The notes beneath the pieces were generated by a model. That model had not been told where the DNA came from and did not search any database. It saw only the letters and a list, made by a program, of their open reading frames with translations. This document shows positions 4,525 to 12,670 of a DNA stretch of 41,618 nucleotides, one piece after another (the stretch's first letter is position 1; each line of letters opens with the position of its first letter). Source of the DNA: Euryarchaeota archaeon TMED173 (GTDB taxonomy: Archaea > Thermoplasmatota > Poseidoniia > Poseidoniales > Thalassarchaeaceae); NCBI GenBank assembly GCA_002172185.1, contig NHHW01000006.1:8917-50534 (forward strand), written 5' to 3'. The translations under genes and the position numbers were made by a program.

Positions 4525-7269
4525 GTGTCAGAAGACTTTGATGACTTCGCGGACTTCCTCATCCTAGATGACGAAGAGGAGGAGAATAATTCAGAAAATA
4601 TAAGGAAGAAAGATACATTCAGACTACCCAAATTTGGTATTTCTAAGAATCCCCCAAAAATCTCCAATGATGAAAATTTAATCATGGAAGATCAATATGG
4701 TGACCATGGTCTCCAGATTTATCTGGACGGGACTTACAAGTTTGAATGGCCAATATCAGGGATGGACTGTGCAGATTGTGCAATGAAAGCAAACTGGGCT
4801 GTGCAGAGACTTCCCGGTGTCGAGTCCAGTAATTTCTCAGTTTCTGACGGGTCCGTCGAAATTACAATAGATATTTCTGTTGGATCCACCTCAAGAGCGT
4901 CATCAGTACTTTCCAGCTTGGGTCATGAGCCTGATGTGGGATGGCTGAGAGTCGTAGGGCAGAATCCAGAAAAAATTTCCTCCATACATGGGATTGACGT
5001 AAGTGAATTGAAAGAATGGCTTCTAAATGTCCCCGGAGTCCTTAATGTAGCTACAAGCAATGGAAGGATAGAAATCCAAAAGGTTCAGATGGAACAAGTA
5101 GAACTGAGAAAATCTGTTGAACAAAAAATGGATGAAATTCTAGGAAATGGGCATTCTCTGGAAAAATTTAGCAGTTCAGGTTTCAGAAAGGATCAGATTC
5201 AACTAATCTCTTCTATTCTAGTAATCCCACTAATTTTCCTTGTTTCATTTTTAGAAAATACAGATTTTTTTCCAGATGTAATCGCGTGGGTAATATCCCT
5301 GGGGGGAATTATTCTTGCAGGACAGTTTCTATTCCAAGAGGCATTAGCTAGTCTGAAGAATAGTCTGATAGGATTCCAAGTACTAGTTTCTATGGCCATA
5401 ATCGGAGCATTCTGCTTAGGAGAATTAGTTGAGGCTCTTCTGGTCGTTTCATTGGTCTCCTTCGCATCCCATCTAGAGAATAGGGCACTTATCAGAGCAA
5501 GAGAATCTATGCAAGGAGGACTAGATCGGTTACCTAGGATGGCACGACTATCAACTACAGGTAAACAAAATAAATCTGGTGTGAGGAATCTGATGGTGAT
5601 TATGCCTATCGAGGTAACGACTCCTCAATCTCATTTTCCACAAGATGAATTAACTCCTCAATCTCATTTTCCACAAGATGAATTAATCCCCGTAGAAGCA
5701 CTGGAAGTAGGGGATTTAGTAGAGATCAGATCTGGAGAGATTGTCCCTGTAGACGGAGTGATAATTGAAGGAGAAGGGGCTATAGATAGAGCACCCTTGA
5801 CAGGAGAGCCTATTCCAATATCTGTAAAGAAAGGAGATAGAGTTGAGGCTGGCTTATCACTCACAAGAGGTCCATTGGTAGTGAAATCAGAGGCAGTAGG
5901 AAGAGGAACAAGACTCTCGAATCTAATCAAATTAGTTAGACACTACAAGGACAAACCCACAAGGACACAGAGTATTATCGAGAGATTTACTCTTATTTGG
6001 ACGCCATTGGTTGTATTCGCTTCTCCAGCTATCGGATTTCTAATCCATCCCGGATCTCCTGAACAGGCAATTCTTACTACATTATTGCTTTGGGTTGTCT
6101 CATGTCCTTGCTCCCTTCTTTTAGCATCTCCAGTACCACATGCTGCAGCCTTGACTACGGCTTCATCGTTCGGACTAATTGCTAGAGGAGGAGACGTTCT
6201 AGAGTCAGCTGCAGAGGTGGAGATAGCTTTACTCGATAAGACTGGAACTTTGACTACTGGAAACCCTACAATATCCAATATATTTGTAGTAAACGGGGAA
6301 AATGAGGAAAGAGTTCTAAGAATCTCAGCAGGCCTAGAATCTCGTTCAAATCATCCATATGCAAAGACAATTATCAACGAAGCAGAGAAGCGATCTCTTG
6401 AGCCAATGAAGATCACTCAAATCAAAGATGGAGAAGCAGGAGTTACAGGGAAACTCGGAGAAAAAACTGCGATTTTCGGTAGATCTGATTGGCTTATTTC
6501 AGAAGGAACCAGGGTCCCCCAAGAAATTCAAAGTATATTGAATGAATCTAGGAAATCAGGAAGTGGTGTAAGCCTTCTATCATTAGACTATTCTGTTATT
6601 GCGATATTTGAATTCACTCATGATGATGCTAGAAACGGGGTTAGAGAAGCGATTAGAGAATTTGAATCTCTTGGAGTTACTGTGGAGATAATCAGTGGTG
6701 ATGAGCAATCCAGTGTTGAAGAATTTACTCGTTCAATTGGATTAGAACGAGCATTGTGTATGGGGGGTGTTAACCCAGAAGAAAAGGCACAATATGTCAC
6801 TGAAAAAACAGCAGTGAAGAGAACCATGATGGCTGGCGATGGATTTAATGATGCGGGTGCACTTGCAGCTGCAGATATTGGAGTGGCGATAGGAAGTGGA
6901 GATCAGGTGAATCTAGATGCTGCAGATATCTTAATTCCAGGAGAAGATCCAAGAGCACTATCAAAAATGATAGGTCTCGCAAAGAGGACAAGAAGGGTTG
7001 TTTTTGCGAATATCACTATCTCGGTAATGGTCACATTGTTCTTAGTTTCTACTGTTTTGATGGGATTCGAAATAAATCTTGCATTGGGCATAGCATTGCA
7101 CGAGATCAGCGTAATAATCGTTATTTTGAATGGAATGTGGGTATCTGGTTCTGAAACTAGTAGGTTTTCGAATCTTAGAGCTCTAGTGATGGATATTTTT
7201 TCTGATATTTCAGAGATTTGGAGTATATTTGTACATTATTTGCCAAAAGACACATCGTCGACCGCTTGA
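4525..7269 (+). CDS. Heavy-metal-transporting P1B-type ATPase
   Basis: Membrane ATPase of 914 residues that exports soft or transition metal ions. In order: an acidic 60-residue N-tail; a metal-binding HMA domain with GMDCADC (C82, C85); a second HMA-like repeat lacking the CxxC; membrane helices; an actuator domain with LTGEP; the intramembrane CPC motif (C527-P528-C529); the phosphorylated D571 in DKTGTLT; the HP pair at 610-611; the hinge GDGFNDA at 771-777; and two final helices. CPC suggests Cu, Ag, Zn or Cd, but the last helix has HEIS around H859, closer to Zn/Co/Cd-type pumps than to copper pumps. The start is a GTG. The actuator domain holds a perfect tandem duplication at codons 366-387. 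Confidence 0.93.
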   Translation: MSEDFDDFADFLILDDEEEENNSENIRKKDTFRLPKFGISKNPPKISNDENLIMEDQYGDHGLQIYLDGTYKFEWPISGMDCADCAMKANWAVQRLPGVESSNFSVSDGSVEITIDISVGSTSRASSVLSSLGHEPDVGWLRVVGQNPEKISSIHGIDVSELKEWLLNVPGVLNVATSNGRIEIQKVQMEQVELRKSVEQKMDEILGNGHSLEKFSSSGFRKDQIQLISSILVIPLIFLVSFLENTDFFPDVIAWVISLGGIILAGQFLFQEALASLKNSLIGFQVLVSMAIIGAFCLGELVEALLVVSLVSFASHLENRALIRARESMQGGLDRLPRMARLSTTGKQNKSGVRNLMVIMPIEVTTPQSHFPQDELTPQSHFPQDELIPVEALEVGDLVEIRSGEIVPVDGVIIEGEGAIDRAPLTGEPIPISVKKGDRVEAGLSLTRGPLVVKSEAVGRGTRLSNLIKLVRHYKDKPTRTQSIIERFTLIWTPLVVFASPAIGFLIHPGSPEQAILTTLLLWVVSCPCSLLLASPVPHAAALTTASSFGLIARGGDVLESAAEVEIALLDKTGTLTTGNPTISNIFVVNGENEERVLRISAGLESRSNHPYAKTIINEAEKRSLEPMKITQIKDGEAGVTGKLGEKTAIFGRSDWLISEGTRVPQEIQSILNESRKSGSGVSLLSLDYSVIAIFEFTHDDARNGVREAIREFESLGVTVEIISGDEQSSVEEFTRSIGLERALCMGGVNPEEKAQYVTEKTAVKRTMMAGDGFNDAGALAAADIGVAIGSGDQVNLDAADILIPGEDPRALSKMIGLAKRTRRVVFANITISVMVTLFLVSTVLMGFEINLALGIALHEISVIIVILNGMWVSGSETSRFSNLRALVMDIFSDISEIWSIFVHYLPKDTSSTA
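5620..5685 (+). repeat. Perfect 33-bp in-frame tandem duplication inside the P-type ATPase
   Basis: Two identical 33-bp copies (5620-5652 and 5653-5685) encode TPQSHFPQDEL twice in a row within an actuator-domain loop, just before the VGDLVEIRSGEIVPVDG segment. The copies match at every base, including third codon positions, which points to a recent duplication. Confidence 0.95.
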
Positions 7270-7783: not shown

Positions 7784-8884
7784 GTGAGCGAGAGCAAGTC
7801 GACAGAATCAGACGATTCTGAAGGCATAGACGAACTAGATGCTCTTAGAGCAGAGCATGCCCTCTCATCACCAGCAGTTACAGCTGCTGTGAGGGCCAGA
7901 GAGCGCTTGGATGAAGAATCCTCTCTACGTTCTGGAATTAGACGAGAAAGAAGGATGAGAATAGCAGAAATGACCGACAGAGTATCTGGTATGCATGGCG
8001 CTATGAGAAAGGCCAACGAAATCCTTTTCGAAGAACAACTTCAACAGATCGAAGCAGATCTCAGAGACGAATTGGAAGACGAGCTTGAAAGATTAGAGAA
8101 GGAAGCCTTGGAAAGAGAGGAAAGACTACTTCGGGAAGAGATGCTTCATAGACTAAGGAGAGAAGAAAATAGACTTAGAGATCAACTTGATTTGGAGAGA
8201 GATCGTAGGATTGAGGCTCATACCTCGAGAGTCAGGGATCGGCTCAGAGAAGAAATGGAAACCGAATTCTCCAGAAGGAGATCATTCTTGGAAGAAAGAT
8301 TGGAACTAGAAGCATCCCAGGCAATAGATAGAATGGAAAGAAGAGTGGAGATGGACCTTAGGGAAGCTATGGAATCAGAAGTACATAGAAAGGCAGACTC
8401 ATACAGATTAGAGCAGGAAATAAAGATGAGAGAGAATATCTCAAAGATGCGAAGAAAGCATGAATCAAAGCTAGAAAAGCAACTTGAAAACGAGAAAGAA
8501 TCTCTAGAGAAGGAGATGTTTTCGGATATTCAGGTAAGAATAAAATCATTGCAAGAAGAGACTGAGAGGGCTGCTCTAGCTGAGCTAGATAGGAGGTTCA
8601 GGGCAGAAAGAGAGAGCACGGAGGCCGCATTAACGCTAAGAAGACAGGAACTCGCTCTTGAGAGCGAGGTTGAGATGGAACAAAGAGTATCTAATTTCGT
8701 CAAAGACCGAGAGACAGAAATGATGTCCAATCTAGAGAAGCAATTAACAAAGAGAGGAGAAATTGAAAAGAAGGAAGTCTCTAAATTGCTCAAGACTATG
8801 GAGTCCGAAATAAAAGTGAAGATGGAAGCTGCTCTTTTAGATGCTAGACAGAGTATTTTAGAAAAATCCAACACGGATAAGTGA
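7784..8884 (+). CDS. Highly charged coiled-coil protein of unknown function
   Basis: A 366-residue protein, almost entirely Glu/Arg/Lys/Leu in heptad-like spacing, with few glycines or prolines after residue 60. It therefore looks like one long alpha-helical rod with a short acidic N-terminal head (SKSTESDDSEGIDELDAL). There is no signal peptide, membrane helix or nucleotide-binding motif. The start is a GTG. It converges on the ParA gene: its TGA directly abuts the ParA stop codon. A structural or scaffold role beside ParA is possible, but the genes are on opposite strands and cannot form an operon. Low-complexity helices match many unrelated proteins, so no family is assigned. Confidence 0.8.
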   Translation: MSESKSTESDDSEGIDELDALRAEHALSSPAVTAAVRARERLDEESSLRSGIRRERRMRIAEMTDRVSGMHGAMRKANEILFEEQLQQIEADLRDELEDELERLEKEALEREERLLREEMLHRLRREENRLRDQLDLERDRRIEAHTSRVRDRLREEMETEFSRRRSFLEERLELEASQAIDRMERRVEMDLREAMESEVHRKADSYRLEQEIKMRENISKMRRKHESKLEKQLENEKESLEKEMFSDIQVRIKSLQEETERAALAELDRRFRAERESTEAALTLRRQELALESEVEMEQRVSNFVKDRETEMMSNLEKQLTKRGEIEKKEVSKLLKTMESEIKVKMEAALLDARQSILEKSNTDK

Positions 8885-9787
8885 TCAATTTTTACTTAGA
8901 CTCCTTATTCTCTCGTCTGCTTCCTTTGCAAAATCCCAGTATGCCTTGCTTGCAGGATTTGACTTAGTCGGCTTCTGTGCAATAACTATTGGAGCTCCCT
9001 CCAAAGGAGACTCTGCTATAGCTACAGATCTGGGAATTTGAGATTCAAAAACACGATCTCCAAAGTGCTTTCTTGCCTGATCCGAAACGGCTTCACATAG
9101 CTTACTCCTAGTTTGCACCATTGTCATCAGAATTCCAAATAATCCTAATTTCGGATTTACTGAATTCTGAACATCCCTGATTGCGGAGATTAGTTGCGCC
9201 ATCCCTTCTAGAGCGTAGAACTCTGCTTGAATCGGAATTAGAACTAATTCTGATGCTGTAAGAGAATTTACTGTAAGCAGACCTAAAGATGCCGGAGTAT
9301 CGATAATAATTATTTCAAACTCATCCATTGCTTCCTGGAGTGCCAATTTCAGCCTGTTCTCTCTCCCTACTCTTGTCGCCAAATCAACCTCTATCCCTGA
9401 TAGGTCCAAATCCGCAGGTAGTAACCACAGGTTTTGAATTGAAATCTGCTTAGGAGGACCTCTTATTTTTCCGGGGTTATTTTTTTTCCATGCGGATTTC
9501 ATTGATCTAGAAAGAATAGCTGAGCTTAGGATGCAGTCCTCCAGTCTTAGGGATGAGTCTCCAATCTCTCTGGCGAACAACTGGTTCATCGTTGGTCCAA
9601 TTTCTCTCTTATCTACACCGAAAGTTGTAGAAACATTTCCTTTAGGATCCATGTCTACAAGCAGTACCTTCCTGCTTCTAATGCCGTACTCTTCATTTCC
9701 TATAGCTAGAGCAGATGCTAGATTAACTGCTGTAGTAGTTCTGGCACAACCACCTTTGTGATTGACGCATGATATTACCAGTGCCAT
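8885..9787 (-). CDS. parA: ParA/Soj-family ATPase with altered Walker A lysine
   Basis: MinD/ParA-type ATPase of 300 residues that would act in chromosome or cargo positioning. The deviant Walker A reads KGGCARTTT (residues 11-19): the signature lysine K11 is present, but the P-loop lysine is R16. The Walker A-prime region is VDMDPKGN where ParA normally has DPQGN. The Walker B IIIIDTPASLGLLTVN and downstream PIQAEFYALEGM, SQIPRSVAIAES and GAPIVIA are typical of Soj. No ParB or parS cluster is visible in the window. The codons for both unusual residues (9740-9742 and 9641-9643) read cleanly, and the frame is intact. Confidence 0.9.
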   Translation of the reverse strand: MALVISCVNHKGGCARTTTAVNLASALAIGNEEYGIRSRKVLLVDMDPKGNVSTTFGVDKREIGPTMNQLFAREIGDSSLRLEDCILSSAILSRSMKSAWKKNNPGKIRGPPKQISIQNLWLLPADLDLSGIEVDLATRVGRENRLKLALQEAMDEFEIIIIDTPASLGLLTVNSLTASELVLIPIQAEFYALEGMAQLISAIRDVQNSVNPKLGLFGILMTMVQTRSKLCEAVSDQARKHFGDRVFESQIPRSVAIAESPLEGAPIVIAQKPTKSNPASKAYWDFAKEADERIRSLSKN

Positions 9788-9828: not shown

Positions 9829-10815
9829 CTATTGTATTACGGGAACGTTTACTTCGCTCAAGATCTTATTCACGACCCTTCTTCCAGTGACGCCTCTGAT
9901 CTTTGACTCAGGCTTGAGTACAATCCTATGGCTTACTACGTCTAGTGCTACACCCTTGACATCGTCAGGAATCACGTAATCCCTTCCATCTATAGCTGCA
10001 GATGCTCTTGACGCCTTGAATAGACCTTGACTAGCCCTAGGTGAAGCACCAGCCTCAATCCTTGGATCAGCTCTGGTCCTCTGCACTACTTGGACAATAT
10101 AGCCAAGAATTGCAGGGTCAATATGGACAGTCTCTAGAGCCTTCTGCATCGCTACAACCTTTCGAGGCTCAACGATTTGCTCCACATCATATCCATCCTT
10201 AGCTCGAAGCTTCCTTCGTTGCAGAATTGCCTTCTCTTCGTCCATCGAGGGATAACCCATGCTCATCTTCATCAGAAACCTATCCATTTGAGCCTCAGGC
10301 AAAGGGTAAGTTCCTTCCTGTTCTATGGGGTTCTGAGTGGCCATAGTTACGAATGGAGCTGGAAGTTTATGGGTGATTCCTTCAATTGTGACTTGCTTCT
10401 CTTCCATTGCTTCCAGAAGCGCAGCCTGAGTCTTAGGTGGAGCCCTATTAATCTCGTCCGCAAGAAGGATATTTGTGAACAATGGCCCAAATCTAGGTCT
10501 GAACTCTCCAGACTTCTGATCGTACATGTAAGTACCAATGATATCTGCTGGAAGTAAATCAGGAGTAAACTGAACGCGCTTGAATTTACATCCCAAAGCC
10601 TCTGCAAATGTATTCGACATCAGAGTCTTTGCCAGACCAGGATTATCTTCAATCAGAATATTACCATTTGCTAGAATCCCGATTGCTACTTTTCTAATAT
10701 TTTCAGGCTTTCCGATAATGACTTTTGCAACCTCGCTCATTAGATTGTTTGTATGTCCCGAAACTGATCTGATTAGGTCTTTAGAGCTAGATCCACCACC
10801 CTGAGCAATCGCCAT
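9829..10815 (-). CDS. MoxR-family AAA+ ATPase
   Basis: AAA+ chaperone-like ATPase of 328 residues. The Walker A is IEDNPGLAKTLM, the Walker B is ILLADEINRAPPKTQAALLEAM, sensor 1 lies in TMATQNPIEQEGTYPLPEAQ and the arginine segment is QMDRFLMK. These are hallmark MoxR sequences. MoxR proteins usually work with VWA-domain proteins to activate or insert cofactors, but no VWA gene lies next to it here. I chose the ATG at 10815, which has a GAGG seven bases upstream; a longer reading would run into the aIF5B gene. It follows aIF5B on the same strand with a 76-bp gap. Confidence 0.93.
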   Translation of the reverse strand: MAIAQGGGSSSKDLIRSVSGHTNNLMSEVAKVIIGKPENIRKVAIGILANGNILIEDNPGLAKTLMSNTFAEALGCKFKRVQFTPDLLPADIIGTYMYDQKSGEFRPRFGPLFTNILLADEINRAPPKTQAALLEAMEEKQVTIEGITHKLPAPFVTMATQNPIEQEGTYPLPEAQMDRFLMKMSMGYPSMDEEKAILQRRKLRAKDGYDVEQIVEPRKVVAMQKALETVHIDPAILGYIVQVVQRTRADPRIEAGASPRASQGLFKASRASAAIDGRDYVIPDDVKGVALDVVSHRIVLKPESKIRGVTGRRVVNKILSEVNVPVIQ

Positions 10816-10891
10816 AATGAGTCCTCGATGTTTATGGCCCCATTCCATGACTACTTGAGTGTTCGGTGCATGTGAACAACTAATGCTCCGA

Positions 10892-12670
10892 CTATCTTCC
10901 CCAGAAGTGGTCTTCCTTGCGATGAATGCTAAGAAGCTCCTCATAAACTTCCTTCTCTGCCTGAGTCATCTCCATCTTCCTCAATTTTCTTGCATGAGAT
11001 TCAGGAATATCTACCAAAAGCACATCGCCTTCATCGACTTGCCTTCCAACAGTCACTCCTTCTATCGAAATTGCTACCTCAGATCCCTGTCTGGCCTCCT
11101 TCATACTTTCCTGTCCCGATCTTATAGACTTGATTCGACCAATTCTCCTCCCATCCTTAAGTAGGCCCTGACCAATGTGAACTCTCCCAGCAATGACTCT
11201 TACGCCCACTACAGCAGGTTTGGAGACTCTGAAAGTATGATCCGGAAGTAGCAATATCCTTCCTGGATATACCACCATCTCTCGCCTCTCTTCTTCAAGT
11301 TCTATTTTCCTCTCCTCGATCCAAATCTCATATTCCTCAAGAATCCTATAGATAATATCGGATCCGATATGTTTCACACCAGCATCCGAATTTCCAATTT
11401 CTTGCTCCGCTTCTTCAAGAATCTCAGTACTGAATGCCATTATAGACCTGTGAAGGGGATCAGAAGAAGCTTCAGCACTTCGAACATCCCTTCTACTAAC
11501 CTTCCCTATACTTGCATCCCTTATCGGTACCCCAATTTCGTTAAGCTCCTTAGCTAGGGCTTCGAGACCACCGACAGTATCAGATTTGATACACACGCCT
11601 TCTTCTTCCAATTCGATTGACAGGTTTGCCTCGATGTTTGCTTCTTCCAATGCATCCATTTTCTCTTCTTCATTTTTTACGACCCTTAGGGTCGTTCCCA
11701 CAAGAACTCCTTCCAGAGATGGTGCGCTAATCTTTACTCCAGCCGCGGCGAATACCTCTTCTGTGTCATCCCACCTATCTCCAGCATCCCTCATTTCACT
11801 CATTCCTCTTGGTGAGAATAACCCTTTTACATGGGTACTTGCACCTCCTCTTTGGCTTACTAGTACTATTTCGTCACCTTTTCTAATGGATCCTCTGTGA
11901 AGAATCAAATCCAATGTTTTTCCAAGCCCCCTCTCTTCCTTCATCTCCAGAACAGTCGCCTCTCCTCTTCCTTCAATATCCATAAGCTGATCCAATAGAT
12001 AACGCTCTGCCAGACCTATAACTACTGCTAGGAGGTCCTGAATCCCCTCTCCTTCTCTTGCCGAGATCGGAACCAAAGCTATGTCTTTGGTGAAGTCCTT
12101 GACTCTGTCATATCTTTCCAAATTAAATCCATCTTCAGCGAACTGACCAACTAGGTCCCAGTATCGCTTCTCGAATAGTTCTGATGCTTCACTTGTCTGC
12201 TCTCTGAGGGAGATGGCCATGGAACGACCATTCTTACACTCCCACCCGTATATTCTGTCTACTTTGTTAGCCGCAATTACGAATGGAGTCTTTGACTGCT
12301 TAAGGATTCTAAGTGATTCTCTCGTTTGAGGTCTACAACCTTCCATTACATCAATAATCAATATTGCTATATCTGCCAATGATCCACCTCTAGCACGAAG
12401 AGAGGAAAATGAGTGATGTCCAGGAGTATCGATGAATAGAAGTCCTGGTGAGTCGAACTTTTTGCCTCCAAGGAGTGGTGCACAAAGATCGTTGAGAATT
12501 CCAGAAGGAACCTCGGTTGCGCCGATGTGTTGAGTAATACCACCGGCCTCTCTATCCATCACCGAAGAACGTCCCTGATCACCCAGAGACCTCACATGAT
12601 CCAGAAGTGAGGTTTTTCCATGATCAACATGGCCTAGAACTGCAATGATGGGTTGTCTACGCTCTGACAT
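10892..12670 (-). CDS. infB: Translation initiation factor aIF5B (IF-2)
   Basis: GTPase of 592 residues that promotes ribosomal subunit joining and initiator tRNA placement. G1 is GHVDHGKT (13-20), G3 is FIDTPGHHSFS, G4 is AANKVDR and G5 is PISAREGEG. Domain 2 and the archaeal/eukaryal-type domain 3 follow. The C-terminal domain 4 has the segments VVGVRVIAGRVHIGQGL and EGVTVGRQVDEGDVLLV. The length matches archaeal aIF5B and lacks the long N-tail of eukaryotic eIF5B. It is 38 bp downstream of Ndk, preserving the archaeal eL8-eS28-eL24-ndk-infB gene order. Confidence 0.96.
   Translation of the reverse strand: MSERRQPIIAVLGHVDHGKTSLLDHVRSLGDQGRSSVMDREAGGITQHIGATEVPSGILNDLCAPLLGGKKFDSPGLLFIDTPGHHSFSSLRARGGSLADIAILIIDVMEGCRPQTRESLRILKQSKTPFVIAANKVDRIYGWECKNGRSMAISLREQTSEASELFEKRYWDLVGQFAEDGFNLERYDRVKDFTKDIALVPISAREGEGIQDLLAVVIGLAERYLLDQLMDIEGRGEATVLEMKEERGLGKTLDLILHRGSIRKGDEIVLVSQRGGASTHVKGLFSPRGMSEMRDAGDRWDDTEEVFAAAGVKISAPSLEGVLVGTTLRVVKNEEEKMDALEEANIEANLSIELEEEGVCIKSDTVGGLEALAKELNEIGVPIRDASIGKVSRRDVRSAEASSDPLHRSIMAFSTEILEEAEQEIGNSDAGVKHIGSDIIYRILEEYEIWIEERKIELEEERREMVVYPGRILLLPDHTFRVSKPAVVGVRVIAGRVHIGQGLLKDGRRIGRIKSIRSGQESMKEARQGSEVAISIEGVTVGRQVDEGDVLLVDIPESHARKLRKMEMTQAEKEVYEELLSIHRKEDHFWGR

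Follow-up and report, generated by a model that had tools for sequence, protein, structure and literature searches.

The locus described here raises the question of whether a chromosomal ParA needs ATP hydrolysis, or whether arginine can replace the lysine of its P-loop. Lysine-to-arginine exchanges made in the laboratory freeze ParA, whereas here evolution has fixed the same exchange throughout a genus, where selection maintains it; together with its lysine-bearing sisters the protein, hereafter ParA1, provides a natural test of this question. In the window, the whole stretch of 41,618 nucleotides analysed, parA1 occupies positions 8885 to 9787 of the reverse strand and its frame is open for 300 amino acids (MALVISCVNHKGGCARTTTAVNLA...KVLLVDMDPKGNV). 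Translation places arginine 16 (R16), encoded by AGA at 9742-9740, at the position of the P-loop lysine, and the signature lysine K11 (codon 9757-9755) is retained, as it is in 97 of 97 proteins compared. The intact frame, the arginine and the retained lysine had all been reported in the preliminary description, and all three stand. Pfam and fold matches agree with the translation in identifying a Soj/ParA-like deviant Walker ATPase. ParA1 belongs to the broad ParA/Soj-type family, with 149.9 bits (E 9e-44) against Pfam AAA_31, for which the gathering cut-off is 27; among solved structures, M. xanthus ParA (8ray) and T. thermophilus Soj (1wcv) match it best by sequence, and a Foldseek search with its model ranks Soj/ParA chains first (prob 1.00, TM reaching 0.84 when normalised by target length). 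The strict motif KGGxxK[ST], as defined in PMC9178275, contains both lysines, of which ParA1 keeps only K11. It falls outside the NCBIfam ParA_partition equivalog NF041546 (86.1 bits, under the cut-off of 180) and outside NF047398, the KGGVGR-motif variant AAA ATPases (25.6 bits where 90 are required, the match covering only residues 4-47).

The preliminary description had held that lysine in close relatives would point to a sequencing error or a one-off mutation; instead, relatives in the same genus carry arginine, and only beyond its boundary does lysine appear. At the DNA level, a pattern for the arginine motif, which matches once in the window and never in 100 shuffles of it, was found in all 21 genomes sampled from the window's genus and in 0 of 271 genomes from 24 other genera (292 Poseidoniia genomes in all). 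In a larger set of the genus it occurs in 26 of 28 genomes, and a family search found no ParA1 in the other two either. The corresponding lysine pattern has 24 sites in 23 of these 28 genomes, located at the positions of a second ParA (ParA2, discussed below) and of a contaminant-like ParAB in one of them. Among viral contigs the arginine motif matched four times, none of them in a ParA frame. At E 1e-20 or better, 250 of the 292 Poseidoniia genomes contain a match to the protein, a count that includes matches to ParA2. We collected 123 loci, namely the window copy, 33 relatives found in named assemblies, 29 other loci from the family search and 60 fetched regions, which encode 97 different proteins, 26 with arginine (R16) and 71 with lysine (K16); the R16 records with species names include Candidatus Thalassarchaeum and Thalassarchaeaceae. 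That the arginine is an error of sequencing or assembly, or a mutation private to this genome, can be dismissed, for the motif is shared by 26 of 28 genus genomes and by named metagenome-assembled and single-cell assemblies, two sets which overlap and agree only partly independently, and five different arginine codons among the R16 genes speak against error.

The P-loop lysine was replaced by arginine once, in a single genus of the Thalassarchaeaceae, and arginine was then kept by selection. When the 97 proteins are placed in a tree, a single branch separates the 26 R16 rows from all others; this branch is present in 92% of bootstrap trees and has a support of 94/91, slightly below the star threshold of the tool. 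Arginine 16 is encoded by AGA in 10 of these genes, AGG in 7, CGA in 4, CGG in 4 and CGT in 1, which indicates that it was retained through silent changes. The R16 proteins are under purifying selection similar to that on their lysine relatives, the median pairwise dN/dS being 0.070 for R16 (40 of 276 pairs in range) and 0.058 for K16 (41 of 2346); these pairs are not independent of each other, and four rows with ambiguous letters were left out. Decay of the gene is ruled out by the same ratios.

The catalytic and dimer motifs are kept as well. K11, G12, G13, T17, T18, D45, D47, P48, K49, G50 and N51 are the same in every one of the 26 R16 proteins, as are D163-T164-P165 of Walker B, in agreement with the family's D(T/C)P, and S167 to L171 of the SLGLL loop, residue 15 being alanine or serine. 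The A-prime aspartate D47 (DPxG; 9647 to 9649, reverse strand) is present in 97 of 97 proteins. The invariance of K11, D45, D47, N51 and the SLGLL loop indicates that the R16 active site is not decaying. The altered A-prime motif, DPKGN, which had been noted together with the arginine, is real (K49, AAA at 9643-9641), but the change is older and wider than R16: all 26 R16 proteins have K49, and among the 71 K16 proteins residue 49 is lysine in 32, arginine in 11 and the usual glutamine in 28. A basic residue at this position, found in 43 of 71 K16 proteins, predates R16 and is not its specific compensation. The proposal that K49 compensates for R16, to be checked by their co-occurrence in aligned homologues, is consequently rejected as far as a specific partner is concerned, and K49 may at most be permissive. 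The DPK motifs of the NifH type may offer a parallel for DPKGN. A closer companion of R16 is methionine 46 (9650 to 9652, reverse strand), which directly precedes the A-prime aspartate and replaces leucine (L46M) in 26 of 26 R16 but only 2 of 71 K16 proteins. As R16 arose only once, neither its association with K49 nor that with M46 is open to a statistical test of correlation.

Compared with chromosomal Soj/ParA proteins of bacteria (T. thermophilus 1wcv/2bek, M. xanthus 8ray, H. pylori 6iub), ParA1 has in common the fold, the signature lysine, the A-prime aspartate, Walker B and SLGLL, and differs in the arginine at the P-loop lysine, in lysine for glutamine in DPQGN, in extra residues from about 70 to 117, in the loss of one of two DNA-binding arginines and in that no ParB was found. 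In Soj-type ParAs two arginines bind DNA (PMC7229837). By our own mapping, based on alignment and spacing, the first corresponds to R227 (9107 to 9109, reverse strand), conserved in 26 of 26 R16 proteins; the second position, 256, is alanine or serine in all 26, so that nucleoid binding of the R16 ParA1 is uncertain, and both positions vary among the K16 relatives. The region of the SLGLL loop is a ParB-binding loop in M. xanthus (PMC12462528), its transfer to ParA1 being likewise our own. No parB lies near parA1, as stated previously and as far as the search extended: the single ParB_N-like match in the window's own genome is below threshold (21.5 against 26.3 bits) and on another contig, and with the ParB_N profile PF02195 15 of the 28 genus genomes gave a match, two of them over the cut-off and none on the contig of ParA1. 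One of the two matches over the cut-off adjoins a probable contaminant ParA. In these 28 genomes, then, ParA1 has no cognate ParB encoded beside it as in ParABS systems, which is in line with a survey of the ParB fold that describes chromosomal ParABS as generally absent from archaea (PMC12704722). One genus genome (G296, contig C42) contains a canonical pair of ParA and ParB of the bacterial type, probably a contamination.

A functional consequence of R16 is predicted and likely. On balance, and with slightly better than even confidence, we hypothesize that ParA1 is an ATP switch of the chromosomal ParA/Soj fold, lacking an evident ParB, in which R16 would render hydrolysis very slow or absent and the ATP dimer long-lived. 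The exchange is identical to two engineered ones, K122R in P1 ParA and K124R in V. cholerae ParA2, with the difference that the mutants are defective whereas the arginine of ParA1 is natural, fixed and conserved. According to PMC10287910, V. cholerae ParA2 K124R has no ATPase activity, binds less MANT-ATP, retains a DNA affinity like that of the wild type and forms immobile foci, and its authors compare it with P1 ParA K122R, which anchors partition complexes irreversibly. By analogy, R16 would still permit ATP binding and, with the signature lysine K11, would let the ATP sandwich dimer form; with hydrolysis very slow or absent, ParA1 would persist as a long-lived ATP-bound dimer, which may bind the nucleoid, and partners, or its own synthesis and degradation, would determine its turnover in place of a ParB-driven ATPase cycle. 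The engineered K-to-R proteins, taken with an arginine fixed under selection, make a slow or hydrolysis-poor switch the best reading. A hydrolysis-poor ParA had been one of two suggestions made earlier, and it stays the preferred one by this analogy, whereas compensation by K49 does not; the analogy is limited in that the engineered data stem from other types of ParA. AlphaFold2 models are uninformative on the P-loop, where pLDDT is below 50 in both the R16 protein and a K16 sister. The titles and abstracts searched, and a phrase search of PMC9599734, contain no report of a ParA with a natural arginine at this position, KGGVGR returned 0 papers in a mostly open-licence literature, and no study of chromosome segregation in these marine planktonic archaea was found in the literature search.

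The main rival of slow hydrolysis is predicted retention of catalysis, a tentative alternative to which we give somewhat more than one chance in three: ParA1 would be a retuned, active ATPase whose arginine takes over the phosphate contacts of the lysine, helped by a permissive background (K49, L46M and K11), and sustains a useful rate of hydrolysis. Aspartate D47 is needed for hydrolysis in other ParAs. Its invariance in the R16 clade, with that of D45 and of the Walker B DTP in 26 of 26 proteins, weakly fits retained catalysis and in that measure tells against the slow switch, an argument weakened by the fact that half of the columns of the clade (152 of 301) are invariant. Selection about as strong as on the K16 relatives is also consistent with an active enzyme, as are the constant presence of K49 with R16 and the near restriction of M46 to R16; nevertheless, a single origin gives no power to tie either residue to R16, and M46 does occur with K16. 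The existence of NF047398, which to judge from its name resembles ParA1 in having arginine at the P-loop lysine position, indicates that such an arginine exists elsewhere. Against a retuned ATPase stand the engineered exchanges, which abolished hydrolysis in V. cholerae ParA2 and block the dynamics of P1 ParA (PMC10287910).

It is improbable that ParA1 is a pseudo-ATPase which has lost nucleotide binding as well, its fold providing scaffolding for a partner, for instance the neighbouring MoxR or the coiled-coil-like protein described below. The ParA superfamily does include a member without the catalytic lysine, namely BcsQ with RGGVGTT (table in PMC9178275), but in R16 proteins the other P-loop residues (except alanine or serine at 15), K11, A-prime and Walker B are invariant, unlike what would be expected of a site freed from ATP binding.

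A second, lysine-bearing ParA is usually retained in the R16 genomes, and its presence may have facilitated the substitution in ParA1. ParA2 is 35% identical to ParA1 of the same genus and differs from it in having KGGVGKTT (23 of 23 genus sequences read) and D[SC]DSQGN (DSDSQGN in 21, DCDSQGN in two), as well as in the gene that follows it. Of the 26 R16 genomes, 22 have its lysine motif, and the other four, the window's own included, are incomplete assemblies; among 16 other Poseidoniales genomes, 12 have ParA2 and four only a weaker ParA1 match. In the R16 genomes ParA2 could carry the dynamic role. In 19 of the 23 loci from the genus, and in 7 of 12 from other genera, the gene after ParA2 codes for an N-terminal GLGRGL, and this sequence fits the ParA-binding motif of ParB type as defined in PMC12704722. 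In the four genus examples tested and in those of g3, g9 and g10 the product matches the EamA transporter family of Pfam, and the g4, g6, g17 and g21 products are about 150-170 amino acids long and have no Pfam match. From its sequence, the GLGRGL gene is a possible candidate for a ParB-independent activator of ParA in archaea.

ParA1 is widespread in the order Poseidoniales and has a conserved neighbourhood, IF2-MoxR-ParA1. In the window, parA1 is preceded on the reverse strand by a MoxR AAA+ ATPase (9829 to 10944, with a likely start near 10815; Pfam AAA_3, 212.6 bits) and a GTPase of the IF-2/aIF5B type (10892 to 12670; Pfam GTP_EFTU and IF-2). Of 93 loci, 92 have MoxR upstream and in the same orientation as parA1, eight of them with a gap of more than 600 bp, the remaining locus beginning too close to show it, and the IF2-like gene is found upstream in 88 of 93. 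On the other side a charged protein, coiled-coil-like by eye and with no Pfam match, is encoded on the forward strand (7784 to 8884), its stop abutting that of parA1; a gene of this kind is convergent with parA1 in 82 of 93 loci, and close to it in 54.

MoxR appears to have changed unusually fast on the branch leading to the R16 genus, a lead that comes from one branch and few genes. Members of the genus share 95% identity in MoxR, and 14 lysine relatives from three genera share 93%, against 78% between the two groups, and in a tree of 72 different sequences (of 81, from 97 loci) the genus stem measures 0.25 at 100/100. The ratio of stem to within-group change is 3.16 for MoxR, in contrast to 0.25-0.71 for six other genes compared with 12-14 lysine relatives, ParA1 having 0.40. 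For four more genes of the locus, with only 6-8 lysine relatives each, it is 0.68, 1.62 (labelled here HAD-), 1.93 (DUF-) and 3.07 (Rpl7ae-), and the high values of the last three weaken the lead. A foreign origin of MoxR is ruled out and the gene is still the orthologue native to the order, its best matches outside the genus lying in the same order at 75-80% identity over nearly the full length; one further match of the order reaches 84% over part of the protein, and other families of the phylum 66% or less (116 genomes sampled). A stronger form of the slow switch, in which hydrolysis by ParA1 would be lost for good and MoxR would reset it by pulling the ATP-locked dimer apart, is less probable still than the scaffold considered above; if true, ParA1 would be a ParA with an outsourced off-switch. 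Elsewhere in the window, positions 4525-7269 encode what by eye resembles a metal P-type ATPase; its translation contains the short tandem repeat TPQSHFPQDEL.
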